From Thermococcales archaeon 44_46 (GTDB lineage Archaea; Methanobacteriota_B; Thermococci; Thermococcales; Thermococcaceae), in NCBI GenBank assembly GCA_001507935.1, contig LGET01000008.1, positions 1-17,435 on the forward strand: DNA of 17,435 bases, given 5' to 3'. The stretch's first letter is position 1; each line of letters starts with the position of its first letter. A model generated the notes under the pieces. That model ran no database searches and was not told the origin of the DNA. It was given only the letters and a program-made list of their open reading frames with translations. Of the stretch, positions 534 to 17,435 are shown one piece after another. The position numbers were made by a program, and so were the translations under genes.

Positions 534-537
534 TGCA

Positions 538-2879: not shown

Positions 2880-2904
2880 AGGTTCCACCACAAAAAATTG
2901 GAGA

Positions 2905-2920
2905 GGCAGATATTTAGACT
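2905..2920 (-). promoter_or_regulatory. Possible internal promoter for the MetRS-beta/agmatinase/thrC unit
   Basis: On the minus strand, CTAAATATC at 2917-2909 overlaps the stop of the MFS gene and sits about 30-38 nt before the MetRS-beta ATG. A transcript starting about 25 nt downstream would carry a very short leader that still holds the GGTGG ribosome site. The TATA match is imperfect and there is no strong BRE, so this is tentative. Confidence 0.35.
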
Positions 2921-4227: not shown

Positions 4228-4269
4228 TGGGGACACCTTAAAGTAATGAAAGAAGAAGAGAAGAGCAGT

Positions 4270-4431
4270 TCACCAGTCTTCATCTTCGTCCCAGTCTTCC
4301 TCCTCCCATTCCTCTTCATCCCAATCTTCTTCGAACTCTTCATCGAATTCCTCATCAAACTCTTCTTCCTCTTCTACCAATGGCTCCTCCTCGTAGTCCT
4401 CTACCTTCTTCTTTTTCTTTGGGGGTTGCAT
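4270..4431 (-). CDS. Hyper-acidic 53-residue mini-protein
   Basis: This small gene begins at an ATG with a strong GGAGGTG ribosome site 6 nt upstream and ends 42 nt before the MFS start. The N-terminus is MQPPKKKKKVEDY. The remainder is almost entirely Glu and Asp, punctuated by aromatics, with repeated short DEEF, EEDW and EEEW-like units, and it ends in DEDEDW. There is no signal peptide, cysteine or recognisable fold; it is probably intrinsically disordered. The charge pattern (lysine patch, then an acidic tail with regularly spaced Trp/Phe) resembles tails that mimic nucleic acid or bind basic proteins, but no function is known to me. Promoter, leader hairpin and ribosome site all support a real gene. 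The opposite strand is also open here but gives only low-complexity hydrophobic sequence. Confidence 0.75.
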   Translation of the reverse strand: MQPPKKKKKVEDYEEEPLVEEEEEFDEEFDEEFEEDWDEEEWEEEDWDEDEDW

Positions 4432-4444
4432 ATTTGACACCTCC

Positions 4445-4460
4445 CGCCCCTCTCGGGGCG
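4445..4460 (-). promoter_or_regulatory. 5'-leader hairpin with GAGA tetraloop
   Basis: Read on the minus strand, CGCCCC-GAGA-GGGGCG forms a perfect 6-bp GC-only stem closed by a GNRA-type tetraloop. It ends directly against the GGAGGTG ribosome site of the acidic mini-protein. With the TATA box at 4490-4481 the transcript would begin almost exactly at the base of this stem, so the hairpin would be the very 5' end of the mRNA. It could protect the 5' end or modulate ribosome access. Confidence 0.55.
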
Positions 4461-4480
4461 TTATATACAGAAATCATGGG

Positions 4481-4497
4481 TTTATAAACTTTTCGTC
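4481..4497 (-). promoter_or_regulatory. Promoter for the acidic mini-protein/MFS unit
   Basis: On the minus strand, CGAAAAGTTTATAAA provides a purine-rich BRE followed by a TTTATAAA TATA box at 4488-4481. The expected start about 25 nt downstream is near 4460, giving a leader of about 29 nt. A second, weaker box, GTATATAAC, lies at 4469-4461, but would start transcripts inside the ribosome site. Confidence 0.6.
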
Positions 4498-4577
4498 ATG
4501 GTTTCTCGGTTCTCATTCAAGATCTAAAAATATTAGGGCTGTATAACAATGTTAATTAGATATAACCGCCATACCTG

Positions 4578-4594
4578 GGAGAAAGGTTTATATA
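4578..4594 (+). promoter_or_regulatory. Promoter of the PLP-enzyme/DUF1611/PP-loop/GNAT operon
   Basis: GGAGAAAGG directly followed by TTTATATA (4587-4594) is a textbook Thermococcales BRE plus TATA box. The predicted start, about 22-25 nt downstream of the box centre, falls at 4612-4616. That gives a leader of about 97 nt before the first gene, unusually long for this group. The leader holds a 10-codon open frame and a palindrome, listed separately. Confidence 0.75.
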
Positions 4595-4612
4595 CCCTTA
4601 ACCAACTTTAGA

Positions 4613-4645
4613 ATGGCTAATATCCATAATACAAGGGCTGAATAA
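4613..4645 (+). other. Possible leaderless upstream mini-ORF (10 codons)
   Basis: The sequence MANIHNTRAE followed by TAA starts almost exactly where the strong TATA box predicts transcription to begin, so it could be translated leaderlessly. It shows no amino acid bias that would suggest classical attenuation. It may be chance; I record it because of its position. Confidence 0.25.
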
Positions 4646-4665
4646 GCGTAGAGTGTAAAAATCCA

Positions 4666-4683
4666 AATTTGAGCCCTCAAATT
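4666..4683. promoter_or_regulatory. Perfect 8-bp inverted repeat in the operon leader
   Basis: AATTTGAG and CTCAAATT flank a 2-nt spacer (CC), about 55-70 nt downstream of the predicted start and 27 nt before the first gene's ATG. As DNA it has the size of a dimeric repressor operator; as RNA it would be a weak AU-rich stem with almost no loop. An operator is therefore the likelier reading. Confidence 0.45.
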
Positions 4684-4710
4684 CAAAAATAGGCGGATTT
4701 GGTGTGGGAA

Positions 4711-5613
4711 ATGGAGACAGAACAGGACTCCGATGAATCCCCCCTATTAAGGGCAACAAGCCTAGAAGAGAAATTAGGGATTTCGAAAATCTATCTAAAA
4801 CTAGAAGCAGCAAATCCAACAAAAACACACAAAGACAGGATCGCAAAGGCACACGTTAAACAGGCAAAAGCCCTCGGCTTTTCTGGGATTACTGTGGGAA
4901 CCTGTGGTAATTACGGGACATCTATAGCATATTTTGCAGAAAAAGAGGGACTAAGAGCCGTGATCTTTATTCCAAGGCACTATGAAAACTCAAGAGTAGA
5001 TGAGATGAAAATGCATGGGGCAGAGGTTATATTCGTAGACGGGCCATACGAGTCAGCAGTCTTTATGAGCAAAACTTTTGCAGCAGCTATGAATTATTAC
5101 GATGCAAACCCGGGATCGCAACCCATGATAGATTACGAAGCTTATTCCCTCATTTCAAAAGAAATTCTCAAAGAAATTGGGCCATATGCAGTCTTTGTTC
5201 CCGTAGGAAACGGTTCCACTCTAGTGGGGGTTTACTATGGTTTCAAAAAATATGGAAAGATGCCAAAAATCATTGGAGTTACAACAAGCTACGGAAATCA
5301 AATACTGAACGCATTTTATACCGGTAGTATGGAAGAAGTTAGAGACTTCGTTGAAACTAAGCTCAACGAGCCTCTTGTTTCCTCGGTATCCTTTGATCTT
5401 CAAAACGCACTTGAAGCTGTAAAAGCATCGAAAGGGTATGTTTTTGGTTTTGCCGATGATACAGCCTTAAAATATGCCAAGATTTTGGAAATGAGTGAGA
5501 GGATAAAGGTTCTCCCAGCCTCTGCCCTAACTTTAGCCGGGCTTGTTAAGTTTGTTAGAAAATTCGGTGTAAATAACGAGAATTTCGTCCTGCTCCTTAC
5601 TGGAGGGGTTTGA
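4711..5613 (+). CDS. Threonine-synthase-like PLP-dependent enzyme
   Basis: This 300-residue fold-type II PLP enzyme is a distant paralogue of the threonine synthase in the same window. It lacks the N-terminal zinc ribbon and starts almost directly at the substrate segment DESPLLRATSL. The PLP lysine is Lys41 in THKDRIA (His replaces the usual Phe of SFKDR). It is followed by TCGNYGTS (64-71), a phosphate loop VGNGST (165-170), and a C-terminal LLTGG. The family does beta- or gamma-elimination/replacement on amino acids; the true substrate is unknown. An in-frame TTG and GTG lie just upstream, but GGTG ends 6 nt before the ATG used here. It is the first gene of a four-gene operon and ends 2 nt before the DUF1611 gene, suggesting that its product is handed to the downstream enzymes. 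Confidence 0.82.
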   Translation: METEQDSDESPLLRATSLEEKLGISKIYLKLEAANPTKTHKDRIAKAHVKQAKALGFSGITVGTCGNYGTSIAYFAEKEGLRAVIFIPRHYENSRVDEMKMHGAEVIFVDGPYESAVFMSKTFAAAMNYYDANPGSQPMIDYEAYSLISKEILKEIGPYAVFVPVGNGSTLVGVYYGFKKYGKMPKIIGVTTSYGNQILNAFYTGSMEEVRDFVETKLNEPLVSSVSFDLQNALEAVKASKGYVFGFADDTALKYAKILEMSERIKVLPASALTLAGLVKFVRKFGVNNENFVLLLTGGV

Positions 5614-5615
5614 AA

Positions 5616-6713
5616 ATGAAGAAAGCCTTGATTCTTGCGGAAGGAAGGTACAAAACGACCGATGGAAAGACTGCCCATGGGTTGGTTAGATACTCTAAGA
5701 GATTTAAGATTGTGGGGGTAATAGATTCCACTTTGGCTGGAAAGGACGCTGGAGAAGTCTTGGATGGAATACCCCGCAACATTCCCATCTACGGAAGCTT
5801 TGAGGAAGCAGTTGCAGAGAATCCCGATGTTAAGTACCTCATAATTGGAGTAGCAACCCCTGGTGGATATTTGCCTCCGCTCTACAGGGAGATTACAAAA
5901 AAGGCAATAAAAAGAGGGATGAACATAGTTAACGGTCTCCACAACTTCCTCAGCGACGATCCCGAATTTTCTCGCTTAGCCAAAAGGTACAAGGTTCAGC
6001 TGATAGATGTAAGGAAGATATACAGAGACCTAAAAATTCCTTTCACAGGAAAAATTGAGGAAGTCAAGGCCATAAAAGTTGCCGTACTGGGGACTGATGG
6101 TGCAATAGGCAAAAGAACCACCGCAATAATGCTTCATGAGGCATTCAAGCACTTTGGAAAGAAGAGCGTTTTTGTGGCAATGGGACAAACAGGGTGGATG
6201 CAAGGGGCAAAATACTGCATAGTAATGGACTCAATAATAAACGACTTCGTTGCAGGGGCTATCGAGGACGTTATCTGGAGAGCTTGGAAAGAAGAAAACC
6301 CCGATGTTATTGTGACACATGGAGAAGGTTCCCTCCTCCATCCAGCTTACCCAGGTGGATTTGAATTAATAGCCTCTGGAAGACCGGATTATATTGTGCT
6401 CCAGCATGCTCCAGCAAGAAAATTCTTCGATGACTTCCCTCAGTACGAGATTCCACCCTTGGAGAAGTACATACAGCTGATTGAACTCCTCTCCGGTAAA
6501 AAACCGATAGCTATCACAATAAACTCTGAAAGACTCACGAAGGAAGAGGCTCTCCAAAAAGCAAGAGAGATAGAGACAACATATGGGATTCTAACAAGGG
6601 TTCCTCTATATGAAGGTGTCGAAGACATAGTTAAGGCAATTCTCGAAGACGCAGGACACTTAAAAGCAGTGGCCCAGCAAGAGGTGACTGCAAATGCCTC
6701 TCAAGTGCTTTGA
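5616..6713 (+). CDS. DUF1611 (COG3367/DgcN-like) P-loop protein
   Basis: This 365-residue protein has the two-part layout of the DUF1611 family. A Rossmann-like N-terminal half (about 1-140) ends with LIDVRK. A P-loop half follows, with GTDGAIGKRTT (159-169), a GQTGWMQG segment (190-197), IINDFVAGAIED (207-218), and HGEGSLLHPAY (235-245). The family was long annotated as NAD-dependent epimerase/dehydratase. From memory, one bacterial member (DgcN) is a D-glutamate N-acetyltransferase, so old labels should be read with care. The Walker-type loop suggests nucleotide or CoA binding. The ATG follows GGAGGGG with 7 nt spacing and lies 2 nt after the PLP-enzyme stop. Its 3' end overlaps the PP-loop gene by 20 nt. 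Precise activity is unknown; acylation of an amino acid made by the first enzyme is a reasonable guess. Confidence 0.82.
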   Translation: MKKALILAEGRYKTTDGKTAHGLVRYSKRFKIVGVIDSTLAGKDAGEVLDGIPRNIPIYGSFEEAVAENPDVKYLIIGVATPGGYLPPLYREITKKAIKRGMNIVNGLHNFLSDDPEFSRLAKRYKVQLIDVRKIYRDLKIPFTGKIEEVKAIKVAVLGTDGAIGKRTTAIMLHEAFKHFGKKSVFVAMGQTGWMQGAKYCIVMDSIINDFVAGAIEDVIWRAWKEENPDVIVTHGEGSLLHPAYPGGFELIASGRPDYIVLQHAPARKFFDDFPQYEIPPLEKYIQLIELLSGKKPIAITINSERLTKEEALQKAREIETTYGILTRVPLYEGVEDIVKAILEDAGHLKAVAQQEVTANASQVL

Positions 6714-8127
6714 CTACATAAACATTGAAAAACCAAAGGTATCTTCCCGAAGGATTTCTGCCGTTTATACCCTCTCTATTGATGGAAATGAGGAAAAATT
6801 TAGGCTGATCCACACTTACAAAGAAAAGATTCCCAGAAATGAAGTCTTCGCAAAGCTTATGGTCATAACTCCAGCGATAAACTACGCTCTTTTCACCCCA
6901 GAAATTTCCTTTAACTTTTCCCTCGATCCAAGAGACCTGCAGTTCTTTAGGGATATGATGGAGCTCACTGCAAATGATATCCTCGTAAACAGAATATACA
7001 GGAGAACAGGGTTTGTTAGGGAAGAGTTCATCCCCAAAGAGATAAAACCGCAGCCTTTGGCAAAGATTGTCCCGGAAAGAGTCGAAGAGGAAGATGTAAA
7101 ATTAACTCCCAACTACAACAAATGCGCTGTAATGCTCAGTGGTGGAAAAGAGAGCCTCCTCACCTATGGCATTACAAAGGAAATAGGGTGTGAAGTTTAT
7201 CCATTCTTCTTCAATGAGTCCGGCGGGCACTGGAAAGTCGCCCTAACAGCGTACAAATGGTTCAAGGAGCATGAGCCAAACACTAAAAAAGTGTGGAGCA
7301 ACGTGGACAGGCTCTACACATTTATAGAAAAGCACATGAAGATACTCCAAAACGTTGGGAAGCCAAAGGCTGAGGTATATCCGATAAGGCTATTCTTCTT
7401 TGAGCATTACGTCTTCTCATTCCTGCCACTAATTGAAAAGTACAGCATAGGAAACGTTTTGTTGGGCAACGAATATGACGACCCGAGGGGGCTTACTTAT
7501 GAGTTTCACGGAATAACTCACTTCTATGCGGTTTTAGATCAGAGCCAGTTCTTCGACAAGTACATGACGAGATGGTTTGTTGAGAGGGGCTTAAATATAA
7601 GGCAGTGGTCTGTTGTAAGGCCAATAACGGGACTTATCGTTGAGAGAATCCTCTACAACCGCTATCCGGAGCTCTTTAAACTCCAGAGGAGCTGTCACTC
7701 AGTTCACAAGGAGGGCGAAGATTATGTGCCCTGTAGCACGTGCTTCAAGTGCAACGGCATACAAACCTTCTTGCTGGCTAATGGAATAGATCCCCAGCTA
7801 ATTAAATACAAACCGCACCACATAGAAACACTTCCCAAGAGGATAGCGGAAGGAAAAGTAAGGCTCGACGAGGATGAGCTCCAGCATTCGCTCTATCTGA
7901 TAAAGCAGAGAAAACCCGATTTTCCCCTCAGCGGGGAAAGGAGAGACCACGTTGAGATGCTCCACTTCGATGACAGAAACTCTCACTTCGACAACATCCC
8001 TCTGGAGTTCAGGGAGAGGATATACTCAATCTTCGAGCAGTATACAAAAGGGTATGCCTATTTAAAGGAAGGCAAATGGGTTGAAATAACAAGGGAGGAG
8101 GCACTCCATGGAGTACACGATAGTTGA
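6694..8127 (+). CDS. PP-loop ATPase with QueC-like cysteine cluster
   Basis: This 477-residue protein has three visible parts. The first is an N-terminal region of about 140 residues that I do not recognise. The second is a PP-loop ATP pyrophosphatase core starting at VMLSGGKES (146-154). The third is a C-terminal part with a cysteine cluster (Cys334, Cys347, Cys350, Cys353; PCSTCFKC) reminiscent of the zinc site of QueC, followed by a charged tail. PP-loop enzymes adenylate a carbonyl or carboxylate and let an amine, ammonia or sulfur attack, so amide, nitrile or thioamide formation are candidate reactions. The protein is longer than QueC (about 220-240 residues), and the N-terminal extension argues against a housekeeping role in archaeosine synthesis. 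GAGGTGA precedes the ATG; the gene overlaps its neighbours by 20 nt on each side. Confidence 0.8.
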   Translation: MPLKCFDYINIEKPKVSSRRISAVYTLSIDGNEEKFRLIHTYKEKIPRNEVFAKLMVITPAINYALFTPEISFNFSLDPRDLQFFRDMMELTANDILVNRIYRRTGFVREEFIPKEIKPQPLAKIVPERVEEEDVKLTPNYNKCAVMLSGGKESLLTYGITKEIGCEVYPFFFNESGGHWKVALTAYKWFKEHEPNTKKVWSNVDRLYTFIEKHMKILQNVGKPKAEVYPIRLFFFEHYVFSFLPLIEKYSIGNVLLGNEYDDPRGLTYEFHGITHFYAVLDQSQFFDKYMTRWFVERGLNIRQWSVVRPITGLIVERILYNRYPELFKLQRSCHSVHKEGEDYVPCSTCFKCNGIQTFLLANGIDPQLIKYKPHHIETLPKRIAEGKVRLDEDELQHSLYLIKQRKPDFPLSGERRDHVEMLHFDDRNSHFDNIPLEFRERIYSIFEQYTKGYAYLKEGKWVEITREEALHGVHDS

Positions 8128-8572
8128 TGGGGAGAGATACCTGGAAGAGATCAAAAAGCTTGACAGGGAAATAAGCTACTCATTCGTTCGCTTTTCCATT
8201 TCCTATGAGGACTTCGCAAAGAGGCACGAAGAACTCTTTAGAGAGCTCCTTTCACATGGAGAACACAAGTTCTTCGCAGCCCTTGATGAGAAAGGAGAGC
8301 TATTAGGCCACGTCTGGGTTTGTTTGACCCTTGATACTGTTGATTACGTTAAAATAGCCTACATTTACGATATTGAAGTTGTTAAAAAGGCAAGAGGGCT
8401 TGGAATTGGTTCAGCCCTTTTAAGAAGAGCTGAAGCATGGGCAAGAGAGAAGGGAGCAAAGAAAGTTGTACTTAGGGTGGAAGTTGATAACCCTGCAGTA
8501 AAATGGTACGAAGAACGGGGATATCAAGCGAGAGCGCTTATAATGGAGAAATTGCTAGACTTCAAAAATTAA
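8108..8572 (+). CDS. GNAT family N-acetyltransferase
   Basis: This 154-residue protein shows the GNAT fold signature. Strand beta-4 is YIYDIEVV (85-92). The acetyl-CoA pyrophosphate loop RGLGIG follows at 96-101 in the R/Q-x-x-G-x-G/A form. The motif-B region is NPAVKWYEERGY (128-139). It should transfer an acetyl or related acyl group from CoA to an amine. The start overlaps the PP-loop gene by 20 nt with GGGAGGAGG ahead of it, exactly the overlap length seen at the previous junction. As the last gene of the operon it may cap an amine made by the earlier steps, or detoxify the product; RimI-like protein acetylation is less likely in this context. Its 3' end overlaps the convergent amidohydrolase gene by 18 bp. 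Confidence 0.83.
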   Translation: MEYTIVDGERYLEEIKKLDREISYSFVRFSISYEDFAKRHEELFRELLSHGEHKFFAALDEKGELLGHVWVCLTLDTVDYVKIAYIYDIEVVKKARGLGIGSALLRRAEAWAREKGAKKVVLRVEVDNPAVKWYEERGYQARALIMEKLLDFKN

Positions 8573-9220
8573 AAGTCTATCACCACTACTTTGGCTCAAG
8601 AGATTTCCGCTCCCATCAAACACCCAAGCGCCACCCGGAGGGTAACTGTTCACAATGAAGGTTTTAACACCAAGTAGTTTAATCCTTTCGGACATTGCCT
8701 TAAGGTCTTCCTCGCTTATCTTTCCGCTCTCGGGTGAATACTCCATGGGCACAAACAGAAAATCGGGCTTTTTCTTTTTTATCCACTTCGCTATGCGCTT
8801 GTTGTAAAGATCGCCACAGATGATGATTGCAACTTTGCCGAACTCAGTCTTAGCAGTCTTCACTGTATTGCCCGTACAGAACTTCATTGGCTCTTGGAAC
8901 TTGCGGTGCTTAAGAATAACTTCTCCTTCACGGTTTATCAAGAGAGCGGAGTTATAGACACAGCTCTTATACGGTTCCAAGAGTCCAAAGATTATATATA
9001 CAGCGTTATTCTTCGCAAGAGTGCTCACTCTCTCGACGATTTCATCATATAGCTTTGCTCCACTGAAGTCCCACTCTCTAAAGCCTGTGAGGCAGTACTC
9101 CGGGAAAACTATAAAATCGGGACTATGGTGTAATGCTTCTTTGAATCGTCTCTCAAACTCCTTCCAGTTAGTCTCAAAGTTTCCATCTTCAACGGGCATC
9201 GGGATTAGGGCAACTTTCAC
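8555..9220 (-). CDS. Short nitrilase-superfamily (C-N hydrolase) protein
   Basis: This 221-residue carbon-nitrogen hydrolase keeps the catalytic triad of the nitrilase superfamily: Glu41 in VFPEYCLTG, Lys107 in the KHRKFQEP segment, and Cys135 in IIICGDLYN. These enzymes hydrolyse amides, nitriles or carbamoyl groups. It is shorter than typical members (250-300 residues), ending soon after the segment that normally reads as the C-terminal beta strands (VFDGSGNLL), so some peripheral elements are trimmed. The start is a GTG with GGTG placed 6 nt upstream, giving the family-like N-terminus MKVALIPM; a GTG three codons earlier is inside that ribosome site. It lies 32 nt after the DUF257-like gene on the same strand and may be co-transcribed with it. 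Substrate unknown. Confidence 0.83.
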   Translation of the reverse strand: MKVALIPMPVEDGNFETNWKEFERRFKEALHHSPDFIVFPEYCLTGFREWDFSGAKLYDEIVERVSTLAKNNAVYIIFGLLEPYKSCVYNSALLINREGEVILKHRKFQEPMKFCTGNTVKTAKTEFGKVAIIICGDLYNKRIAKWIKKKKPDFLFVPMEYSPESGKISEEDLKAMSERIKLLGVKTFIVNSYPPGGAWVFDGSGNLLSQSSGDRLLIFEV

Positions 9221-9252
9221 CTTACACACCAGAAATTAAGCAATAAAAAGTG

Positions 9253-9915
9253 CTAGAGTTTTAGTTTAAAGCCCTCCATCTCCGTGTTAATTGCCTTTAA
9301 AACCATAACATACACGTATGGCTTGGTTCCTTCTTCATCTTTTGCCCTTACAGCTCTTATTACAGTGGTTGCCAATTCTTCTAGGAGGGACATTACGTAT
9401 CTGGAACCATCATCTAGGACATCTCTGTTCACAAAGTAAAATATGGTCTTTTTCTGGGAGTTCCCGTATTTCACAAGCAGGTCAAGGAGCATAAGGGCTT
9501 CAAACTTTGATTCAGCAAGCAAAAATACTCTAGATAAGCCTAAAACGACGACGATGGTTTGTTTGGTTTCATTTTGGGAGAAGTAGGGAGTGCAAGTTAA
9601 TTCAAAATCCTTAATGAGCTTTGGAATGTCACTCGCGGGTAGTCTAGCAAGCACTTTGCCTACGTTTAAGCGACCACCAACTTTAATGACCTTTAAGTTC
9701 TCAAAAAATTCCGTTTCCAGCTTTGCAAGGCTTATCTGGGTTTTGTATAAGGATAGAGTATCGAGAATATCAATGACCATTACGTCATAGCCTTTTTTTC
9801 TAGCCCAGGTGAGCAAGTAGTAGAACCCCTTGTAGGGAAGTGTCAGTGAGTCATACTCCACTAGGGCACTCTCTCCCGGAACAATTGATTCCCATATTTT
9901 AGCCCCTTCGGTCAT
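9253..9915 (-). CDS. DUF257-like family protein
   Basis: This 220-residue cytoplasmic protein resembles the DUF257 family, which I know as a lineage-expanded family in Thermococcales with a RecA/KaiC-like outline but no conserved catalytic site. Visible features are an N-terminal IVPGESALVEYDS segment where a KaiC-like protein would have its P-loop (a Walker lysine is absent), a hydrophobic strand VMVIDILDTL (a Walker-B-like position), and later strands TIVVVLGLSRVFLL and KTIFYFVNRDVL. The start has GGAGGTG 3 nt before it, slightly tight; an in-frame GTG 12 nt upstream lies in the ribosome site. A perfect inverted repeat sits about 60-80 nt upstream. Function unknown; family assignment is from pattern memory. 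Confidence 0.7.
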   Translation of the reverse strand: MTEGAKIWESIVPGESALVEYDSLTLPYKGFYYLLTWARKKGYDVMVIDILDTLSLYKTQISLAKLETEFFENLKVIKVGGRLNVGKVLARLPASDIPKLIKDFELTCTPYFSQNETKQTIVVVLGLSRVFLLAESKFEALMLLDLLVKYGNSQKKTIFYFVNRDVLDDGSRYVMSLLEELATTVIRAVRAKDEEGTKPYVYVMVLKAINTEMEGFKLKL

Positions 9916-9976
9916 TGCCACCTCCACTTATATCACCATGCATAATTGTGGAATTCACTACTTATTAGTTTATTGG

Positions 9977-9998
9977 ATTACAAAGACATCTTTGTAAT
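9977..9998. promoter_or_regulatory. Perfect 10-bp inverted repeat upstream of the DUF257-like gene
   Basis: ATTACAAAGA and TCTTTGTAAT flank a 2-nt spacer (CA). The repeat lies about 60-80 nt before the DUF257-like start and about 20 nt after the stop of the broken upstream gene. No T-tract follows in either direction, which argues against an intrinsic terminator and for a dimeric-regulator operator. The core word TACAAAGA recurs between the tandem repeats upstream of the RiPP precursor. Confidence 0.5.
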
Positions 9999-10017
9999 GC
10001 ACCCCATACTAGGAAAA

Positions 10018-10426
10018 CTACCACTTCAGCTGTTTACTTAGGTTGAATGCTTTTTCTGCAAGCTCATCGGGAATATCAAATGGATTTTGGTACTTGCTGA
10101 GTTCTTTGAACAAAATATCGAACTGTTTCAGCGTTCCAAGGTTTTCACTTAGCATCATTTTTCGTTCCTCGTGTGGCTTAAAGGCGGCGGACATGATCTC
10201 TGTAGTTCACGGCGTAAAGGAAGATAACCTCATTAGAGGCATTGTTCTGGAGAATATATTCAAAACTCGCCCCTATATGCTCAAGCTCCCATCTGTTTAT
10301 CTCAAATTCCGTATAGGCATCTTTTAACATCTCGTTATTTTTCTCTTTACACTGCCACCAAGAATATATCGAGAAGGCTGAAACTAAGAGTAATGCAATA
10401 AGAAGGAAAGACATGCCCTTCTTCAT
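10018..10426 (-). pseudogene. Small membrane-anchored protein, frameshifted
   Basis: The first 82 codons begin at an ATG with GGTGAT ahead of it and encode a hydrophobic anchor (FLLIALLLVSAFSIYSW) followed by a soluble domain ending YAVNYRDHVRRL. Reading shifts near 10195-10205: the adjacent frame continues as MSAAFKPHEERKMML to DELAEKAFNLSKQLKW, with the same charged, helical character and no ribosome site of its own. Removing one nucleotide restores a 135-codon gene. A single transmembrane anchor with an extracellular helical domain is the likely original product; I do not recognise the family. Two separate small genes are a less likely alternative, because the second frame has no start signal. 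Confidence 0.6.
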
Positions 10427-10451
10427 ACAATCACCAAATTTTAATTCATTG

Positions 10452-10470
10452 ATAAAGATTTAAAAACTCT
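10452..10470. promoter_or_regulatory. Shared AT-rich core of divergent promoters
   Basis: GATAAAGATTTAAAAACTC contains a plus-strand box (AAAGATTTAAAAA) about 33 nt before the flavoprotein ATG. On the minus strand the same stretch reads GAGTTTTTAAATC, about 40 nt before the membrane-protein ATG. One AT-rich core may therefore serve both divergent genes, both of which are now frameshifted. Confidence 0.45.
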
Positions 10471-10496
10471 TTTACATTGTAATTTTAAGTGATATC

Positions 10497-11064
10497 ATGA
10501 AGGCTTTAGGAATAGCATTCAGCGCGAGGAAAAATGGGAACTGTGCGAAACTTTTGCAATATTGTTTAGACAATCTCAAAAAAACAAGGCTTTGAGAGTG
10601 AACTAATAGAAGCCTATGACTTTCAGATCACACCGCGCAGCCACTGCAACTATGAGTGCTTCTCTGGAAAGTGCCCCATTGAAGACGATGTTCCCCTGCT
10701 CTACGAAAAGGCCACAAAAGCCGATGTCTTAATCTTTGCTGTACCGACCTATGGAGGGCATGCTTCAGCTCTTTACAGAGCTTTCTGCGAGAGAGGACAG
10801 GCAGTTTTCAAGACTTATGAAGAATGGAACGACTTTGCAAAGAAGCTAAACTTCATCGTCGTGGGGAACTTGTCTTCAGGTGGGGACATGGCACTTCATG
10901 AGGTTCTCCATGGGATTGCCACATCGGACTACTGGCCCGAAGCAATTCTGATATCTTCAAGTGAATACCTGAGAAGCTCAATTAAGGGAGATTTAATCGA
11001 GGAAGACGAAATCAAAGCTCGGATAAATAGATTTGCAGGAAGGATAATCCAAAAGATGGGGTGA
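10497..11064 (+). pseudogene. Iron-sulfur flavoprotein / NADPH-dependent FMN reductase family, frameshifted
   Basis: The N-terminus has the family's FMN phosphate loop (FSARKNGNCAKLL). A cysteine cluster follows the frameshift (HCNYECFSGKCPIEDD), comparable to the compact cluster of Isf-like flavoproteins. The next elements are the flavin segment FAVPTYGGHASALYRAFCER and FIVVGNLSSGGDMALHE. The frame breaks at a run of seven A (10578-10584): with six A the reading joins NLKK to QGFESELIEAYDF and gives a full-length 188-residue protein. As written, translation stops after 32 codons. This may be a true lesion, a sequencing indel, or a slippage site that still yields some product. The gene ends 6 nt before the first methyltransferase paralogue. 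Confidence 0.75.
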
Positions 11065-11070
11065 AAAGAA

Positions 11071-11775
11071 GTGTTTAAAGACCTCGGCTATACTGATTCA
11101 CCCTTTTACGAAAAGACCTAAGATGAATACGATATAGAAAGCGAGAGAGGTAAAGAAAGATTTTCAGAGTTAAGAGAGATTCTTTCAAGACACTTACCCA
11201 TTAAGAGCGGCAGAGCTTTGGACATTGGCTGCAACGCTGGGCTAAGCAGTTTTGTTTTAGAAGAGCTGGGTTTCGACGTTGTGGGCATAGACATTCAAGA
11301 AAAGGCCGTAGAGCGGGCTAAAGAGTTAGCCAAAAAGCGAGGTTCAAAGGCAAAATTTTATGTTATGAACGCTAAAAATCTAGATTTCAAAGAAAACACC
11401 TTTGACCTCGTTGCTCTGCTAGGTTATCCACTGGCACATTTTAGCATCTGGGATTTTGATAGGATTCTGCAGGAAATTAAACGAGTCCTAAAACCTCAAG
11501 GTTACATTGTGATTCAAGAAAGCGACTTCCTCTGGACGCTTATAAAGGGGTTCAACCAGCCGGGACTTGAGGCTGAGGGCTTGGTTAGGATAAACATCAA
11601 CGTGGATGTTCACGAAGGATATCTTGAGAGACTGCTCATTGATTTTGAAAAAGGTGTATTCTTAAGGGATAAGTTCTACATATGGTCTCCATGGATTCTG
11701 CGCTATGTTCTTGAGAAGAACGGCTTTGAGGTGGAATTTAAGGATAAGGACTTGATTCTTGCTCAGAGGGGGTGA
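11071..11775 (+). pseudogene. SAM-dependent methyltransferase paralogue 1, interrupted by TAA at codon 17
   Basis: From a GTG start (weak ribosome context) the frame reads FKDLGYTDSPFYEKT, then TAA at 11119-11121, then DEYDIESERGKERF and a complete class I methyltransferase: ALDIGCNAG as motif I, GIDIQEK as motif II, FDLVALLGYP, and a C-terminal IWSPWILRYVLEKNGFEVEF. The two paralogues downstream align along the whole length, and the intact one has Trp at the place of the TAA (EKLW against EKT-stop). Total length would be 234 codons. No start with a ribosome site lies between the stop and motif I, so a functional product is unlikely unless the stop is read through. The substrate is unknown. 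Confidence 0.75.
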
Positions 11776-11779
11776 AGCT

Positions 11780-12523
11780 ATGTTCAAAAACCTTGGAGAA
11801 ACTTTTGAGCCAACCTATAAGGAAAAGCTCTGGATGTACGACCCGAGGACGGAAGTTGGAAAGAAAAGAATGGAGAGGCAGAAAACCCTACTTGGAAAAT
11901 TCCTCCCCATAAAACGTGGTAAAGCTTTGGATATTGGCTGTGGCATGGGAATCTCGACCTTTGCTCTCGAAGACTTAGGGTTTAAGGTTATTGGAATTGA
12001 CCTTCAAGAAGAACTCGTAGAGAAAACAAAGAAAATCGCGGAAGAACTTGGATATAAAGCGGAGTTTAGAGTTATGGACGCAAGAAAACTCGATTTCCCA
12101 AATGAGAACTTTGATTTAGTTGTGCTTTTAGGGAATCCTCTTCCTCATTTAAGCATCTATGACTTTGATAAAATTGTCCAAGAAGCTTTTAGAGTGCTTA
12201 AACCCAATGGAACACTCTTTCTCGAGTATGCAGACTGGGTTAGACTGCTCCAGCAAGGCTATAGAGATGTGCTCGTTGAAGATCCATTCATTTCTTTCCA
12301 TGTTTCCCTCGATACGACAAAGGGCCAAGTAGAGCGGCTTTTCATTAACCTTGAGAAGGGCTATTTCTTTAGAGTGAAGATTAATGTCTGGGCACCATGG
12401 ATTGTGGAATTCATCCTTAGAAAAGCTGGGTTTGAAGTGGAGACGCACTATTTGGGAACTTTTAGTGTTGTGACTGTCGGAGTAAAAAATGAAGTTTTAG
12501 CAACAGAAGGAGATGGTAAATAA
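11780..12523 (+). CDS. SAM-dependent class I methyltransferase (paralogue 2, intact)
   Basis: This 247-residue protein is the only intact member of three tandem paralogues. Motif I is LDIGCGMGIST (50-60), followed by the acidic ribose-binding residue Asp74 in GIDLQEE, then FRVMDARKLDF (motif III area), FDLVVLLGNPLPHLS (motif IV area), and a C-terminal NVWAPWIVEFILRKAGFEVE. It belongs to the Methyltransf_11/25 group, which methylates small molecules, lipids or proteins; the substrate cannot be told. GGGGGTGA lies 4 nt before the ATG, overlapping the stop of paralogue 1, and the TAA overlaps the next ATG as TAATG. The family clearly arose by local duplication, and this position seems to be the copy under selection. 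Confidence 0.85.
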   Translation: MFKNLGETFEPTYKEKLWMYDPRTEVGKKRMERQKTLLGKFLPIKRGKALDIGCGMGISTFALEDLGFKVIGIDLQEELVEKTKKIAEELGYKAEFRVMDARKLDFPNENFDLVVLLGNPLPHLSIYDFDKIVQEAFRVLKPNGTLFLEYADWVRLLQQGYRDVLVEDPFISFHVSLDTTKGQVERLFINLEKGYFFRVKINVWAPWIVEFILRKAGFEVETHYLGTFSVVTVGVKNEVLATEGDGK

Positions 12524-13151
12524 TGAACAAAATTGAGGATATTTTAAAACATCTTGAAAATGTTCTATGGTCTCTTGAAGTTAAAGGAGACCTTTTGAAA
12601 GCAAAAGAAAAATATATGAAGAAATAAAAGATCTCCCAGAAAGTAAAGAGAAATTTGGGCTTATATCCTTTTGTCTGATGTGAATTGCAAATGTAGAGAA
12701 TGCATTGGGGAACACTGAGCATGCGGAGGAGTTTGCGAGAAAAGCACTTGAATATGCCACTAAATCCGAAGAAAAAGTAAATCAGGGACGAGTATTACTT
12801 GTTCTTGGCTCAATCTACAATACAAAGCAGAAATTTGAAGAAGCCTTAACTTACATCCAAAAGGCCAAACTTTTATTCAAAGATGCATCTAAAGATGTGC
12901 CAGAAGTTGATAGTATACAAGGTTATGGATGGGCGCTTCTTCTGGAGGCAAGTATTCTTTTGAATATAGAAGAAATTCAGAAAACTGAAGATACAGCAAA
13001 AGAAGCTTTGAAAGTTCTAAAAGACATCAACAATACTCCCGGAATTATTAGAGCATACGAGGTTCTTGCTGAGATATATGAGAGGTTAGATAGATCAGAA
13101 GAAAAAAGAAGAGCTGAAGAAGAAATCAAGAAGCTGAAAGAAAGCCTTTAG
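12523..13151 (+). pseudogene. TPR-repeat protein, frameshifted and with an internal stop
   Basis: Reading begins at an ATG overlapping the methyltransferase stop (TAATG) and gives MNKIEDILKHLENVLWSL, then stops after 34 codons. Near 12605-12615 (a run of five A) the neighbouring frame takes over as IYEEIKDLPESKEKFG. It meets TGA at 12681-12683 and continues as NVENALGNTEHAEEFARKALEY and several further helical pairs of tetratricopeptide type (for example FEEALTYIQKAKLLF, IIRAYEVLAEIYERL). One added nucleotide and one codon change restore a protein of 209 residues. TPR proteins mediate protein contacts; its place between methyltransferase paralogues suggests a partner or regulator of them. Two independent lesions make a real pseudogene likely. 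Confidence 0.7.
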
Positions 13152-13160
13152 GGGTCTAAA

Positions 13161-13873
13161 ATGTTCAGAGATTGTGATGATGGTAGTGATGCTTATTACA
13201 AAGCCCTTCCCGCTACTTGGGATGCAACAAGTGAAATTGGGAAGAAGAGAATAATGGGGTTAAAGGAGATCTTAAGGAAATACCTGCCCATAAAGGGAGA
13301 AAAAGCCCTAGATATTGGTTGCGGCATGGGAATTTCAACTTTTGCCTTAGAAGAACTCGGCTTTGAGGTTATTGGGATAGACCTCCGAGAGGAAGCAATC
13401 CAAAAAGCTAAGGAGATAGCAAAGGAGAGGGATTCCAAAGCAGAATTCTACATTATGGATGCCAAAAGACGGGCATTTGAGGAGGATAGCTTTGATCTCG
13501 TTGCTTTACTTGGCTCTCCTTTACCCCACTTCAGTGTTTATGACCTCGATGAAATTGTGAGGGAATCATATCGCGTCTTAAAGGCGAAGGGAGTCATTGT
13601 AATCGAATACGCGGATAATCTCAGGGGACTTTACAGGTGGTACAGGGACGTTTTTGTTGAGGGTTCCCTTGTTTCTATCCGAGAGGGAATTGATTTCATC
13701 AAAGGCCGTGAAAGAAGGTTCTTTATCGATTTGACAGGGGGACTATATTTACCGTTGAGTTCCACCTCTGGTCACCGTGGATTCTTGAATTCATCCTGCG
13801 AAAGGCGGGTTTTGAAGTGAGAAGCTACCCTATAAACGGGAAGATGGTTGTGACTGTGGGGATAAAAGGTTGA
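13161..13873 (+). pseudogene. SAM-dependent methyltransferase paralogue 3, frameshifted near the C-terminus
   Basis: The intact N-terminal part carries the same motifs as its neighbour: ALDIGCGMGIST, GIDLREE, FDLVALLGSPLPHFS and VIVIEYADNL. At TATTTACC (T-run 13748-13750) one T appears to be missing. As written the frame ends at 13820 with an unrelated tail, whereas the next frame continues as FTVEFHLWSPWILEFILRKAGFEV to VVTVGIKG with a stop at 13871-13873, matching the C-terminus of paralogue 2. Repaired length is 237 residues. AGGGGT lies ahead of the ATG. Because only the last 40 residues are lost, some stable product might remain, but the conserved C-terminal helix and strand are gone. 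Confidence 0.75.
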
Positions 13874-13889: not shown

Positions 13890-13972
13890 TTTTTTGTATT
13901 ACTTTACAAAGTTTTATTTTGTTAAGAACATCAGAATTTATGAAAAGAAGGACTCTAAGTCTTACTTTTTTT
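13890..13972 (+). terminator. T-tract terminator region after the methyltransferase cluster
   Basis: A run of six T at 13890-13895, about 17 nt after the restored stop of paralogue 3, and a run of seven T at 13966-13972 resemble archaeal intrinsic T-tract terminators. The second follows a short imperfect stem (GACT, CTA, AGTC). Together they should separate the methyltransferase unit from the RiPP cluster. Confidence 0.5.
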
Positions 13973-14015
13973 ATTGGAAATTTATTAACTCCAAATTATT
14001 AACTAAAAGTTTACG

Positions 14016-14057
14016 AAAGATTTAAGTATTAAATACAAAGATTTAAGTATTAAATAC
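14016..14057. repeat. Two perfect tandem 21-bp repeats with internal palindromes (operator candidate)
   Basis: Copies at 14016-14036 and 14037-14057 are identical and directly abutting. Each contains the palindrome ATTTAA-GTA-TTAAAT (14020-14034 and 14041-14055). The 21-bp period equals two helical turns, so two regulator dimers would sit on the same DNA face. The repeats end just before the best TATA box for the precursor gene. A partial, degenerate third copy may overlap that box. The AT content is high, so simple-sequence duplication is an alternative. Confidence 0.6.
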
Positions 14058-14069
14058 AACTTAAATAAG
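14058..14069 (+). promoter_or_regulatory. Probable promoter of the RiPP precursor
   Basis: ACTTAAATAAG (14059-14069) is a TATA-like box directly after the tandem repeats. Transcription would begin near 14090, leaving a leader of about 26 nt that holds the GGGGGTGG ribosome site. The repeat copies also contain TATA-like cores (TTTAAGTA), so the exact box is uncertain. Confidence 0.45.
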
Positions 14070-14115
14070 TATGCCGAGGCAACAATGAAGCAAAAAATCA
14101 AGGGGGTGGCGAAGT

Positions 14116-14211
14116 ATGGAAGTTGTAGAACTAAAAGCAAAGCTACCTCCAGTTGCCCCAAGTGCTGGTGGTGTTGGTCTTGCATGTTGTTGCGACAAGG
14201 TTGGAAAATGA
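14116..14211 (+). CDS. RiPP precursor-like peptide, 31 residues
   Basis: The ATG follows a strong GGGGGTGG site with 6 nt spacing. The N-terminal part, MEVVELKAKLPPVAPS, looks like a short leader. It is followed by AGGVGLA, three consecutive cysteines (Cys24-26), and the tail DKVGK. A Gly-Gly at 18-19 offers a natural leader cleavage site, leaving a 12-residue core. A radical SAM enzyme with a SPASM-like region and an ABC exporter follow directly, the usual arrangement for a modified-peptide cluster. Expected chemistry would be thioether (sactipeptide- or ranthipeptide-like) or other radical changes at or near the cysteines, but nothing in the sequence fixes it. I do not recognise the peptide as a known family. 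A T-tract 9 nt after the stop could keep its mRNA more abundant than that of the downstream genes. Confidence 0.72.
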   Translation: MEVVELKAKLPPVAPSAGGVGLACCCDKVGK

Positions 14212-14219
14212 CTCTATAA

Positions 14220-14243
14220 TTTTTATTTTACTTTTTTATTTTT
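14220..14243 (+). terminator. T-tract between precursor and maturase (partial terminator)
   Basis: Four T-runs of 5, 4, 6 and 5 bases separated by single A or AC begin 9 nt after the precursor stop. This is the form of an archaeal intrinsic terminator. There is no clear promoter between it and the radical SAM gene, so read-through probably feeds the maturase and exporter at a lower level. Confidence 0.55.
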
Positions 14244-14266
14244 AAACCCTAAACCGGGGGATAACT

Positions 14267-15595
14267 ATGGTGGGTTTTATTCATACGTTTCAAATAAAAA
14301 ACAAGTATATGGGCTTTGATCCCCTGAGCAAGACATTATTAATTTTAGATTCTAAAGAAGTTAAGGTCATAAACAAGATTAAACGGAATGCTCCATTGAC
14401 ATTAAGTGAGAGGCAGATGCTATTGGAAATCCAAAAAACGTTAGATTCAAAACGTGAGAATGTAAATCCGATAATAGTGCCTGCAGAGATTAATCCAAAC
14501 ATGATGGTTTTAATGGTCTCTCAAACCTGTAATATGAAATGCGCATATTGCTACGCATGTGAGGGTACATACACAAAGCCAGGTATACTTAAAATAGAAC
14601 TAGGGAAAAGAGCCCTAGACATAGCAAATGAACTAGGAGTGGGCACTGTTCAGTTTTATGGTGGCGAGCCATTATTAAACTTCGATTCAATAGAGAAGTT
14701 GGTGGAATATGCTGACATCAATGGATACAAGTTTAGATATGGTATTGTAACTAACGGAACGTTAATTAATAGGCGAATTGCTGATTTTTTTACCCAGTAT
14801 GACTTTGAAGTAACGGTCAGCGTTGATGGTCCCCAAGTAGTAAACGACCTGAATAGGAAGTATAAAAATGGGAAAGGCACATACGCAGATATTATAAAAG
14901 GACTAGAACTGCTAAATGAGAGGGGTATCAAACTAGCATTAGAAGTAACATATGCCAGAAATTACATTCAGAAATATTCCATACGTGACATATTGTCTCA
15001 TTTGAGTAAATATTCAAAGACATTTATAGTTGGGTATGTTCTTCCGCCAGTGCAATTTCAAAATAACATTATTAGGGATAAATATGCATTAAAAGAAGCG
15101 GAAATTGAGGAATTCTTGAAGGAACTAGTGGATTATCTGTTTGACAAATGGGAAGAGGGTATACCAATAAAAGAAATGGGCGTATGTAGAATCCTTAGGG
15201 AGATTCTCGATCCAGAATATCATGTGAAAACGTACATATGTTCCGAGATGCCTCTGAGGATAACTGTATTTTACGATGGAGATGTGTATCCATGCCATCA
15301 AACGTACTTAGACAGGCGATTTTATTTAGGAAATATAAGAGACAAAGATTTCACAAAACTCTTAAAAGAGAGGATATCCAAGGTAACAGAACATTTTACT
15401 ATGTCAAAGCTGAAATTGCATGACGCTTGGTTTAGCAATCTTGGTGATTTTTGTAGAATCCATTTAAAAGAAAAAGTGAAGGGTACCTACGTTCTTAAGT
15501 ATCCTAGGGCCTATGAGAGGACATTTGAGCACATACTATACAATGTTGCTACTAGGGATATGAAGAAAGTCATAGAAACCCTCGGGGGAATATAG
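14267..15595 (+). CDS. Radical SAM peptide maturase (SPASM/twitch-like)
   Basis: This 442-residue enzyme has an N-terminal region of about 80 residues typical of peptide maturases, possibly for leader recognition. The radical SAM core starts at QTCNMKCAYCYAC: Cys88, Cys92 and Cys95 make the CxxxCxxC cluster, with Cys98 extra. GGEPL (132-136) is the SAM amino-group motif, and SVDGP follows at 185-189. In the C-terminal part, Cys325-x12-Gly338-x4-Cys343 fits the opening SPASM/twitch signature, with further cysteines at 307 and 396. The later CxxCx5CxxxC block of full SPASM domains is absent, so it probably holds one auxiliary cluster rather than two. It should modify the adjacent peptide by radical chemistry. 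GGGGGAT precedes the ATG; the exporter start follows its stop with no gap. The gene looks more AT-rich than the exporter, hinting at a mixed history. Confidence 0.85.
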   Translation: MVGFIHTFQIKNKYMGFDPLSKTLLILDSKEVKVINKIKRNAPLTLSERQMLLEIQKTLDSKRENVNPIIVPAEINPNMMVLMVSQTCNMKCAYCYACEGTYTKPGILKIELGKRALDIANELGVGTVQFYGGEPLLNFDSIEKLVEYADINGYKFRYGIVTNGTLINRRIADFFTQYDFEVTVSVDGPQVVNDLNRKYKNGKGTYADIIKGLELLNERGIKLALEVTYARNYIQKYSIRDILSHLSKYSKTFIVGYVLPPVQFQNNIIRDKYALKEAEIEEFLKELVDYLFDKWEEGIPIKEMGVCRILREILDPEYHVKTYICSEMPLRITVFYDGDVYPCHQTYLDRRFYLGNIRDKDFTKLLKERISKVTEHFTMSKLKLHDAWFSNLGDFCRIHLKEKVKGTYVLKYPRAYERTFEHILYNVATRDMKKVIETLGGI

Positions 15596-17251
15596 TTGGG
15601 TGAGAACTTCCGAAAACTCATGGAGATTGGGAGAGCACACAAGAAATACATACTCCTGCTCGTTGTACTGGGAGTTATATCAACGATTCTTTCTGCCATG
15701 GTTCCATTTTACTTAAGGAACCTCTTGGATGAGCTTGAAATGTTAACACTTTCCCAGATACTTAGGGAGATAGGGATTATACTTGGTCTTTACACACTTT
15801 CTACTGTAATATACCTCTATGCTGGTTTCATAAGCAACTTTGCCGAGACCAAAGCTGCAGCATGGCTGAAGAGAAGGCTTTTTATCTCAACCCTATACGC
15901 AGAAAACATAAAACCTGGGGATGCCCTTTCGCGGATTCAATCAGATACCGAAATAGTAGGCAGACTTGGAATGTCTCTTATACCTGCTGTAATAATTGAG
16001 GGATTTTCTCTCGCTATGGCCGTTTTTGTCGTCTTCAAGCTCAACGTTTATCTGGGATTACTCACACTCATCACAATGCCGATATATGGCTTCTCCATGA
16101 GGGCATTTGTCCATAGATTGAAGATTGCTTCATCAAATGAGAGGGAAAAATACTCAAAGACAGTTACCGCTTTCAAGGAAGGACTTGATGGCAGGCTGGA
16201 TGCCAAAGCTCTGAACGCCTTTGAGTATCTCATCTCTAGGATATCCAAAAATCTCGATGAATGGGTCGAGGCGACAAAGAAGATGGCGTTCTATCAAACG
16301 GCAAACTATGGTCTCCAGTCATACCTCTCAACTATCTTGCCTTTGACCATACTTCTTGCAGGCCTTCTGCTTGTTAAGAAGGAAATGGCCCCACTCTCCG
16401 TCGTCATTGCTGTCTTCTCATATCTAGGAAAAGTTTACTACCCCATAGAGCGCTTTGCGTTTCTATGGAGCGCATATCAAAGGGCAATTCCAGTTCTGAA
16501 CAGGATATGGGGAATACTCGAAATAGGGGAGTCCTCAGAAAGGTCTGCATGTAATCCATACTCCTTCGATATTACACTTAAAGACGTTCACTTTTCCTTT
16601 GATGACGAGAAAGAAGTGCTCAGGGGCATATCAGCTATAATACCTTATGGAAAGAAACTTGGAATTGTAGGTTCATCAGGTGTTGGAAAAACAACATTAG
16701 CCATGCTTCTTGCAGGAATACTAAGCCCAACAAAGGGCACTGTGAGCATAGGAGGCTGTCATCCATCTTCCATTTTAGGTAATTCTCTCATATATATACC
16801 CTCTTCCCCCCATCTCTTTACAGGGACTGTTAAGGAAAACATTGCTCTGGGCATGAACGTTAATGACAATGATATTGCAAAATTGCTTGAGCTCGTTGAG
16901 CTTGGGGGCATTGATATGAACACTCTAATTGAAGAAGGCGGCAAGAACCTTTCACTCGGGCAGAAGCAACGAATTGCTCTGGCAAGAGCATTGGTTAGAA
17001 GACCGAAAATACTTATCCTAGACGAGGCAACTTCGGGCATAGACTCGGAAACTGAAGCAAAAATCCTAGAGAGGCTCAAGATGATGGATATGACGGTGGT
17101 GGTCATCTCTCATAGACTTTCAACCGTCAGGGAAATGGAAGAGATATGGGTGCTTGACGGGGGCATGGTGACATGCAGAGGACGGCACAATGAGTTGCTT
17201 CAGTCGTGCCAGAGGTATCGTGAACTCTTTAGAGAGCAGCAAAAAGGCTAA
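15596..17251 (+). CDS. ABC transporter, fused permease-ATPase (peptide exporter-like)
   Basis: This 551-residue half-transporter has an N-terminal type IV exporter membrane domain (about 1-310, roughly six segments) and a C-terminal ATPase. Walker A is GSSGVGKTT (359-367), the signature is LSLGQ (452-456), Walker B is ILILDE (472-477), and the H-loop is His506 in VISHR. The Q-loop glutamine is not seen: the family's PQDPxLF-like segment reads IPSSPHLF (401-408). There is no N-terminal C39 peptidase, so if the precursor is cut after Gly-Gly another protease must do it. It should act as a homodimer exporting the matured peptide, with possible self-protection. The TTG start directly follows the maturase stop with GGGGGA 6 nt upstream; a later ATG at codon 9 has a poorer ribosome site. 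Confidence 0.87.
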   Translation: MGENFRKLMEIGRAHKKYILLLVVLGVISTILSAMVPFYLRNLLDELEMLTLSQILREIGIILGLYTLSTVIYLYAGFISNFAETKAAAWLKRRLFISTLYAENIKPGDALSRIQSDTEIVGRLGMSLIPAVIIEGFSLAMAVFVVFKLNVYLGLLTLITMPIYGFSMRAFVHRLKIASSNEREKYSKTVTAFKEGLDGRLDAKALNAFEYLISRISKNLDEWVEATKKMAFYQTANYGLQSYLSTILPLTILLAGLLLVKKEMAPLSVVIAVFSYLGKVYYPIERFAFLWSAYQRAIPVLNRIWGILEIGESSERSACNPYSFDITLKDVHFSFDDEKEVLRGISAIIPYGKKLGIVGSSGVGKTTLAMLLAGILSPTKGTVSIGGCHPSSILGNSLIYIPSSPHLFTGTVKENIALGMNVNDNDIAKLLELVELGGIDMNTLIEEGGKNLSLGQKQRIALARALVRRPKILILDEATSGIDSETEAKILERLKMMDMTVVVISHRLSTVREMEEIWVLDGGMVTCRGRHNELLQSCQRYRELFREQQKG

Positions 17252-17403
17252 CTGAAGATGAAACATAAAAGTACTGCATCCCTAGAAACTTCCAGCGAAA
17301 CCCTCTGGGAAAAACAACTCTGGAAGAATATGTGCCTTGAACCACACACTTCATTAATAAAAGCTTTTAAACTGTTTTAAATTGTGTAATTTTGGATAGA
17401 GAC
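17252..17403 (+). other. Gap after the exporter gene with no convincing gene
   Basis: This stretch contains a 40-codon open frame (17258-17380) without a ribosome site, and two TATA-like words (CTTTTAAACT at 17364-17373 and GTTTTAAATT at 17374-17383). The TATA words probably belong to a promoter for the gene that begins at the right edge. I see no hairpin or strong T-tract terminator. Confidence 0.4.
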
Positions 17404-17435
17404 ATGTGGTCCTACAAATTCGAAAAGGAGACCGT
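17404..17435 (+). CDS. Possible start of another gene (cut by the right edge)
   Basis: An ATG followed by WSYKFEKET is open to the window end. CTTTTAAACT lies about 35 nt before it, as expected for a short-leader archaeal transcript, and TTGGAT may serve as a weak ribosome site. Only ten full codons are visible, so neither the family nor the reality of the gene can be judged. Confidence 0.3.
   Translation, partial: MWSYKFEKET

Follow-up and report, generated by a model that had tools for sequence, protein, structure and literature searches.

The SPASM domain of radical S-adenosylmethionine (SAM) enzymes is described by the motif CX9-15GX4C, gap, CX2CX5CX3C, gap, C, and goes with two auxiliary clusters (PMC6231123). 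Among the enzymes closest to the one discussed here, the ranthipeptide maturase PapB joins Cys to Asp or Glu (PMC9413430), and the Twitch-type sactisynthase SkfB has ligands for its auxiliary cluster I (Aux I) with the spacing CX33CXC (PMC6231123), unlike the present maturase. A predicted archaeal ATP-binding cassette (ABC) transporter for antimicrobial peptides has been described (PMC4158269), which is apparently not the present system. We have analyzed a stretch of 17,435 nucleotides from Thermococcales archaeon 44_46 (contig LGET01000008.1; the whole stretch is referred to as the window), in which the genes for a short peptide with three consecutive cysteines, a radical SAM peptide maturase, and an ABC exporter form one three-gene unit. 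We think it reasonably likely that this unit is a self-contained cassette for a ribosomally synthesized and post-translationally modified peptide (RiPP), in which the CCC is linked by thioethers to the Gly-rich segment upstream of it. The literature on Thermococcales or archaea with RiPP or radical SAM describes no such system among the matches listed, and an earlier mention is possible.

The precursor gene and its family

The precursor gene (14116-14211, on the forward strand, as are the other genes and sites of the cassette) has 31 codons and a stop, and is preceded by the strong ribosome-binding site GGGGGTGG at 14102-14109, just as an earlier note on this DNA had read it. The product, MEVVELKAKLPPVAPSAGGVGLACCCDKVGK, divides into a leader-like part, MEVVELKAKLPPVAP, the Gly-rich segment SAGGVG, the core CCC, and the tail DKVGK. 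No NCBIfam or Pfam model matches this peptide, and the other members of its family likewise have no NCBIfam match. When 94 genomes of the family were searched with the maturase, close relatives turned up in six, namely the window's own genome (G000), G081, G077, G024, G018, and G038, and the next-best match has 34% identity. Five of these six cassettes have a homologous peptide upstream of the maturase: it is MEVVELKAKLPPVAPSAGGVGLACCCDKVGTGK in G081, MKSLDLKAIIPPVAPSAGGSGNYCCCNKVNTN in G024, MKSLELKAIIPPVAPSAGGSGNYCCCNKVNTN in G038, and MEVLELKAIIPPVTPSSGGSGNHCCCNVSTT in G018. The sixth cassette, in G077, has no peptide upstream of its maturase, and the GGxGxxCCC codon pattern is found nowhere in that genome.

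A wider, pattern-based scan of 84,980 species genomes, limited to the best 80 of 352 relatives, added two close maturase loci, one labeled Bathyarchaeota (L027, 41% identity) and one from Halothermothrix (L028, 35%), which are preceded by the peptides NNVKVVNAKAKLPELTPSSGGGGFICCCDSVK and MIIFNSQSRDLVIEEPGSGGGGNTCCC, respectively. The precursor family thus spans beyond the Thermococcales, within which the earlier note had proposed to search, to other archaea and one bacterium. The organism label of the Bathyarchaeota locus is unsure because the contig is only 5.6 kb long. The Halothermothrix locus also carries cobalamin riboswitches and a tRNA, consistent with a bacterial contig, and its peptide gene has TTGACA (L028 7746-7751) and TATAAT (7769-7774) separated by 17 bases, followed by the Shine-Dalgarno sequence AAGGAGGTG (7806-7814) before the ATG at 7821. 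The family consensus is PxSGGxGxxCCC, with the P, the GG, the next G, and the CCC invariant in all seven peptides. In the Halothermothrix peptide, the CCC is the C-terminus, with no residue after it.

Is a frame of 31 codons a gene? Among the clade loci with readable upstream DNA, the peptide is found in seven of eight (the sister paralogue is excluded, and P0006 and P0007 are left out of the upstream-DNA counts). By contrast, a CCC-type precursor frame occurs within 400 bases upstream of none of 77 other related maturases in public genomes (79 public loci were scanned, L027-L106 minus L045, of which 78 have at least 200 bases of upstream stretch), and upstream of none of 14 other Thermococcales maturases. 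Homologues of the maturase within the clade do, then, adjoin a CCC peptide, as the earlier note had anticipated. The GGxGxxCCC codon pattern has matches in 8 of 115 genomes of the phylum; five of the eight are the peptide gene beside the maturase, and the other three lie in unrelated regions under longer open reading frames.

The codons were compared over at most 20 aligned positions, as raw counts of identical/synonymous/nonsynonymous codons with no per-site normalization. The counts are 13/7/0 for G024-G038, 2/12/6 for window-G024, 2/9/9 for window-G018, 4/10/6 for window-G038, 6/10/4 for G024-G018, and 7/9/4 for G018-G038. Synonymous codons thus exceed nonsynonymous ones in five of the six Thermococcales pairs and equal them in the sixth (window-G018), in keeping with the claim that the frame is conserved. 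Compared with the Bathyarchaeota peptide, the counts are 2/10/8 for the window, 3/6/11 for G024, 2/9/9 for G018, and 1/8/11 for G038, and the five Halothermothrix comparisons give 2-7 synonymous and 8-10 nonsynonymous codons. The synonymous excess is visible in closely related pairs and weakens as the distance grows. Because the peptide is conserved, both in the codon comparison and in the upstream scans, a chance open reading frame is excluded. An overlapping Cys-rich frame at 14085-14219 was also considered as the precursor, and was rejected since, of the other cassettes, only the near-identical one of G081 has it.

A T-rich tract, recognized by eye, lies between the precursor and maturase genes (14220-14243). 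Such tracts follow the peptide stop in all five peptide-bearing Thermococcales cassettes, a count made by eye with no control for chance. In Halothermothrix, an inverted repeat, GCCTATTGTGGG...CCCACAATAGGC (L028 7914-7947, also by eye), lies between the precursor and the maturase. It is possible that the T-rich tract acts as an attenuating archaeal terminator, and both it and the inverted repeat could lead to more precursor being made than enzyme. Rfam, at gathering scores, gives no RNA-element match in the window or in L109, L110, or L111. Upstream of the precursor gene, at 14019-14060, the 21-base unit GATTTAAGTATTAAATACAAA is found twice in tandem, the second copy differing in its last base; it is single in G081.

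The maturase and the exporter

The maturase gene (14267-15595) encodes 442 amino acids and matches the Pfam Radical_SAM model with 77.6 bits. The CX3CX2C motif (C88, C92, and C95; 14528-14551) for the SAM-binding [4Fe-4S] cluster is invariant in 60 of 60 aligned proteins, which are the window protein and 59 of 120 listed proteins, out of 280 found. Three cysteines of the Aux I type follow within 15239-15454, C325 (15239-15241), C343 (15293-15295), and C396 (15452-15454), in the arrangement C325-X12-G338-X4-C343 and then C396. With respect to the full SPASM motif, the first half is present, plus the last cysteine of CX2CX5CX3C (C396), and the other four positions in the window protein are not Cys. 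In an alignment of 51 rows of our choosing, 12 from the clade and the sister paralogue and 39 from outside (L031 and L090 are among the loci not included), the three Aux I cysteines are kept in all 12 clade and sister rows. The cysteine set for auxiliary cluster II (Aux II) is incomplete in the same 12 and kept in all 39 outside relatives. The exact pattern CX2CX5CX3C fails in many of the outside relatives too, as a result of variant spacing, but the alignment shows the cysteines to be kept in the 39 that it covers.

From this inventory, the maturase appears to be a reduced, Twitch-like form of a SPASM enzyme that has the ligands of a single auxiliary cluster. The Pfam SPASM model speaks against such a reduction, with a score of 26.0 bits that is above the cut-off of 21.5, for a match to profile positions 3-44 of 67 only (residues 327-367). 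The auxiliary-cluster region proposed in the earlier note is therefore present, with the ligands of a single cluster, and is Twitch-like rather than a full SPASM domain. The clade maturases form one clade in a tree of 88 rows, made by a quick method and with several long branches, including L112 and P0007, and their Twitch-like state arises within a set of SPASM enzymes. This nesting suggests that the clade has lost the Aux II ligands secondarily. Nineteen rows were dropped from the tree as pieces, near-duplicates, or over-long fusions (L014-L016, L036, L048, L051, L055, L057, L064, L066, L073, L096, L097, L101, L102, L108, L110, L111, and L113), and L045 had no usable frame. The predicted N-terminus has the order strand-strand-strand-helix-helix and falls inside the CteB and TigE alignments. 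This region, about residues 1-75 (14267-14491), may be similar to a RiPP recognition element (RRE) and bind the leader.

In both G018 and G038, the maturase is split into two frames, at a point that differs between the two genomes, with the ABC frame open (L110 8012-9408; L111 8598-9936). The maturase frame is open in the near-relatives P0003 and P0004, and an assembly error is possible in the two split cases. A lost maturase with a retained exporter would fit an immunity role, and two cases prove nothing.

The exporter gene (15596-17251) starts with TTG, directly abutting the maturase stop (15595/15596), so that the gapless succession of a radical SAM gene and an ABC gene holds as first described. 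It encodes a half-transporter of 551 amino acids, whose membrane domain and ATPase match Pfam ABC_membrane and ABC_tran. An ABC gene stands directly behind the maturase in six of six Thermococcales cassettes, with 63-100% identity (63-66% between the two Thermococcales groups), and also in the Bathyarchaeota and Halothermothrix loci, making eight of eight clade loci read. The Bathyarchaeota ABC gene (L027 3706-5415) has an in-frame TAA between the membrane and ATPase domains, which would reflect two subunits, decay, or an assembly error.

What is the function of the conserved Gly-Gly? The earlier note had described the peptide as a leader, a Gly-Gly, and a core with the CCC, and both the GG and the CCC are indeed conserved. 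The GG, however, belongs to a conserved motif of the core and is unlikely to be a cleavage site of the C39 type, because it sits inside the invariant GGxGxxCCC motif and because the C39 peptidase PF03412 is absent from seven of seven Thermococcales genomes, the window's own being 79% complete. The exporter itself has no C39 peptidase match in Pfam, and the control search was positive in 8 of 14 genomes. A double-glycine leader with C39 cleavage is rejected for the lack of this peptidase in the seven genomes. The finding that weighs on the other side is a C39 match in both the Bathyarchaeota (G094) and the Halothermothrix (G095) genomes. An M48 peptidase near the G024 and G018 cassettes was considered as the processing protease, and was rejected since it is common to fewer than three of the six surroundings.

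Transfer and genomic surroundings

The window tract 13899-17435 is 98.6% identical to G081; it reaches little beyond the three genes and continues past the end of the window. A housekeeping stretch (window 538-2549) has 77% identity in G081, 90% in G077, and 82% in G078, and the window from 1 to 4049 is 81% identical to G081 by blast. The DNA that flanks the tract in the window is without a match in the 18 kb surrounding the cassette of G081. Because, between these two species, the cassette is 98.6% identical and the housekeeping DNA 77-81%, and because the maturase and the exporter are the only families common to all six surroundings of about 18 kb, we conclude from these comparisons that the three genes have been transferred recently as a unit. 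Precursor, maturase, and exporter in one transferred tract agree with the logic of modified-peptide clusters that the earlier note had seen in the locus.

The nearer relative of the window is G077 (97.1% identity over 3449-11487 and 99.0% over 14287-17435). Between G081 and G077, the identity is 97.8% over the maturase, the ABC gene, and about 330 bases past it, and 79-84% in pieces beyond. On its upstream side, the tract in G081 borders on a transposase-like element, a name that is weakly based: in the G081 copy, one of two open reading frames matches DDE_Tnp_1 with 19.9 bits, below the cut-off of 23. In G077 (L108 9031-9962), a transposase-like element replaces the precursor and the first maturase codons, and the start of the maturase is altered. 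This locus is a natural cassette without its peptide.

Some other neighbors were considered as parts of the system. In G024, G018, and G038, genes for deoxyhypusine synthase and a short-chain dehydrogenase lie within some kilobases of the cassette, on differing sides (L109 4498-7573, L110 994-2882, and L111 12918-15984, respectively). We reject them as partners, since the synthase is general, being present in 82 of 94 genomes (the cassette in six), and is distant from the cassette in both G081 and G077; a shared insertion neighborhood is thus more likely than a partnership, and the region is possibly an insertion hotspot. The window has three methyltransferase-like genes of one kind at 11218-13820, and none is found within about 18 kb of the G081, G024, G018, and G038 cassettes, so these are also rejected. 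The third of them (13161-13820) seems, by eye, to run out of frame toward its 3' end, where another frame reads like the end of the neighboring methyltransferase's product. Carriage by a plasmid or a virus was likewise rejected. At E 1e-20, there is no close relative in 72,556 plasmid records (eight records, 26-36% identity), and there is none in viral contigs (17 loci, best segments 22-37%).

Proposed reaction and comparison with known systems

The reaction that we propose begins with binding of the leader half, MEVVELKAxxPPVxP, by the RRE-like N-terminal domain of the maturase, followed by placement of the cysteines at or near the site-open auxiliary cluster. With the SAM cluster and one auxiliary cluster, the enzyme would then abstract a hydrogen atom within the Gly-rich segment SGGxGxx, and the three consecutive cysteines would close thioethers to carbons of this preceding segment. 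We expect the links to be directed N-terminally, because the CCC ends the Halothermothrix precursor and nothing stands behind it. The ABC protein would export the product, which most likely would act outside the cell, in antagonism or signaling. A more far-reaching statement is tentative, and on balance we doubt it: that this is a RiPP class across archaea and bacteria, including hyperthermophiles, in which thioethers connect all three contiguous cysteines to the neighboring Gly-rich segment in a very compact knot that is stable to heat, the product of a maturase that is secondarily without Aux II and has one substrate-binding auxiliary cluster.

The three adjacent cysteines, invariant in seven of seven precursors, could also serve another purpose, since a tri-cysteine cluster would be a plausible soft-metal site. 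The peptide would then be modified with its cysteines free or partly linked, the CCC would be a ligand for copper, zinc, or iron, and the ABC protein would export a metallophore or a metal-detoxifying peptide. We regard this as unlikely. Within the cassette flanks, to which this comparison is limited, no metal gene recurs by all six Thermococcales cassettes, because no flanking gene except the maturase and ABC genes does; most flanking genes are unnamed by family models. Furthermore, among the fold matches that include the N-terminal domain of the maturase, the closest is a thioether-forming enzyme.

The radical chemistry might instead be of a different kind, such as a C-C cross-link, an epimerization, or a backbone change at the conserved P or G, with the cysteines binding the open Aux I only to position the substrate. 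The predicted maturase model is matched by anSME, ChlB, SuiB, and EpeE, and the invariant positions include a P and three G besides the CCC, in agreement with such chemistry. The CCC, however, is kept in all seven precursors, in archaea and a bacterium, and the top-scoring family models for the maturase include those of the thioether formers PapB and SCIFF, all far below cut-off. We consider a different chemistry improbable, to the same degree as a metal ligand.

Syntheses of pyrroloquinoline quinone and mycofactocin start from small conserved peptides. By analogy, the unit might make a protein-derived cofactor or an intracellular regulator, with the ABC gene a neighbor that has another job, and the short-chain dehydrogenase close to three of the cassettes (G024, G018, and G038) would be in keeping with this. 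But the dehydrogenase does not adjoin the cassette in the window, G081, or G077, and where present it sits with the widespread deoxyhypusine synthase, whereas the ABC gene adjoins the maturase throughout the clade, retains its similarity between the Thermococcales groups, and has moved together with the other two genes. This makes a cofactor or regulator very improbable. That the 31-codon frame is no gene, and that the maturase acts on another protein, is hardly credible: the frame is very short and has no NCBIfam or Pfam match, but its position and residues are conserved across archaea and a bacterium, with a synonymous excess in most Thermococcales pairs and a consensus promoter and Shine-Dalgarno sequence in Halothermothrix.

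If, as we favor, the unit is a self-contained RiPP cassette with a thioether-linked CCC, Thermococcales would have a minimal RiPP system that moves horizontally and is related to systems of Bathyarchaeota and one bacterium. The clade, without the ligands of Aux II and nested among enzymes that have them, would offer a test of the role of that cluster, and a heat-stable three-gene system should suit enzymology.

How does the cassette compare with described systems? The best NCBIfam match of the window maturase is to the PapB-family ranthipeptide maturases (NF047865), with 158.9 bits over residues 80-360, well below the cut-off of 340, and the present precursor has no spaced Cys/Asp repeat. For SCIFF and its maturase CteB (TIGR03974; PDB 5wgg), the score is 123.7 bits against a cut-off of 425; CteB keeps Aux II, whereas the present clade is without that cysteine set, and SCIFF has six spaced cysteines in place of the single CCC. 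SkfB (PDB 6efn) is remote from the predicted model, with 19% identity and a root-mean-square deviation of 7.2 over 294 residues, and it differs from the present Twitch-like state, which is nested among SPASM enzymes. The model for CcpM, rSAM_ocin_clost (TIGR04068), gives 129.8 bits, below its cut-off of 500. The CcpM-related systems of Bacillota resemble the cassette in having related maturases, short Cys-rich frames upstream, and an ABC gene in some loci, but the frames have GGxC or CxxxC repeats without a CCC, and their examined maturases keep Aux II. By the curated models, then, the cassette falls outside SCIFF, PapB, and CcpM.

Other loci have a similar organization. In Aciduliprofundum (L035 6900-10021), an archaeal peptide, maturase, and ABC cassette has the peptide MVEEVKLSTTANGAKIAGGGGCAVGCIGVGICGVGCMM upstream of a maturase that keeps Aux II, and the ABC gene follows. 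Small Cys/Gly-rich precursors stand before related maturases in L039, L054, L040, and L049 (Oscillospiraceae and other Bacillota), and in three of these four they are repeated, for example as MEFKMNEVxVxxIxILEETEAPAFGIICGGGCWGIGC and similar peptides. The sister cassette, in G078 (L112, in the region 8161-10116) and G077 (L113), has a maturase 30-34% identical and an ABC protein 31% identical to those of the window, and its maturase is also without the Aux II set. Three small frames lie in tandem upstream of it, and these peptides have no NCBIfam match; the core, ITACSGxAIxCGG, has two spaced cysteines and no CCC. Judged by these sequence comparisons, the peptide of the window would represent a new precursor family and its enzyme a new maturase clade, which together probably work like a RiPP cassette.

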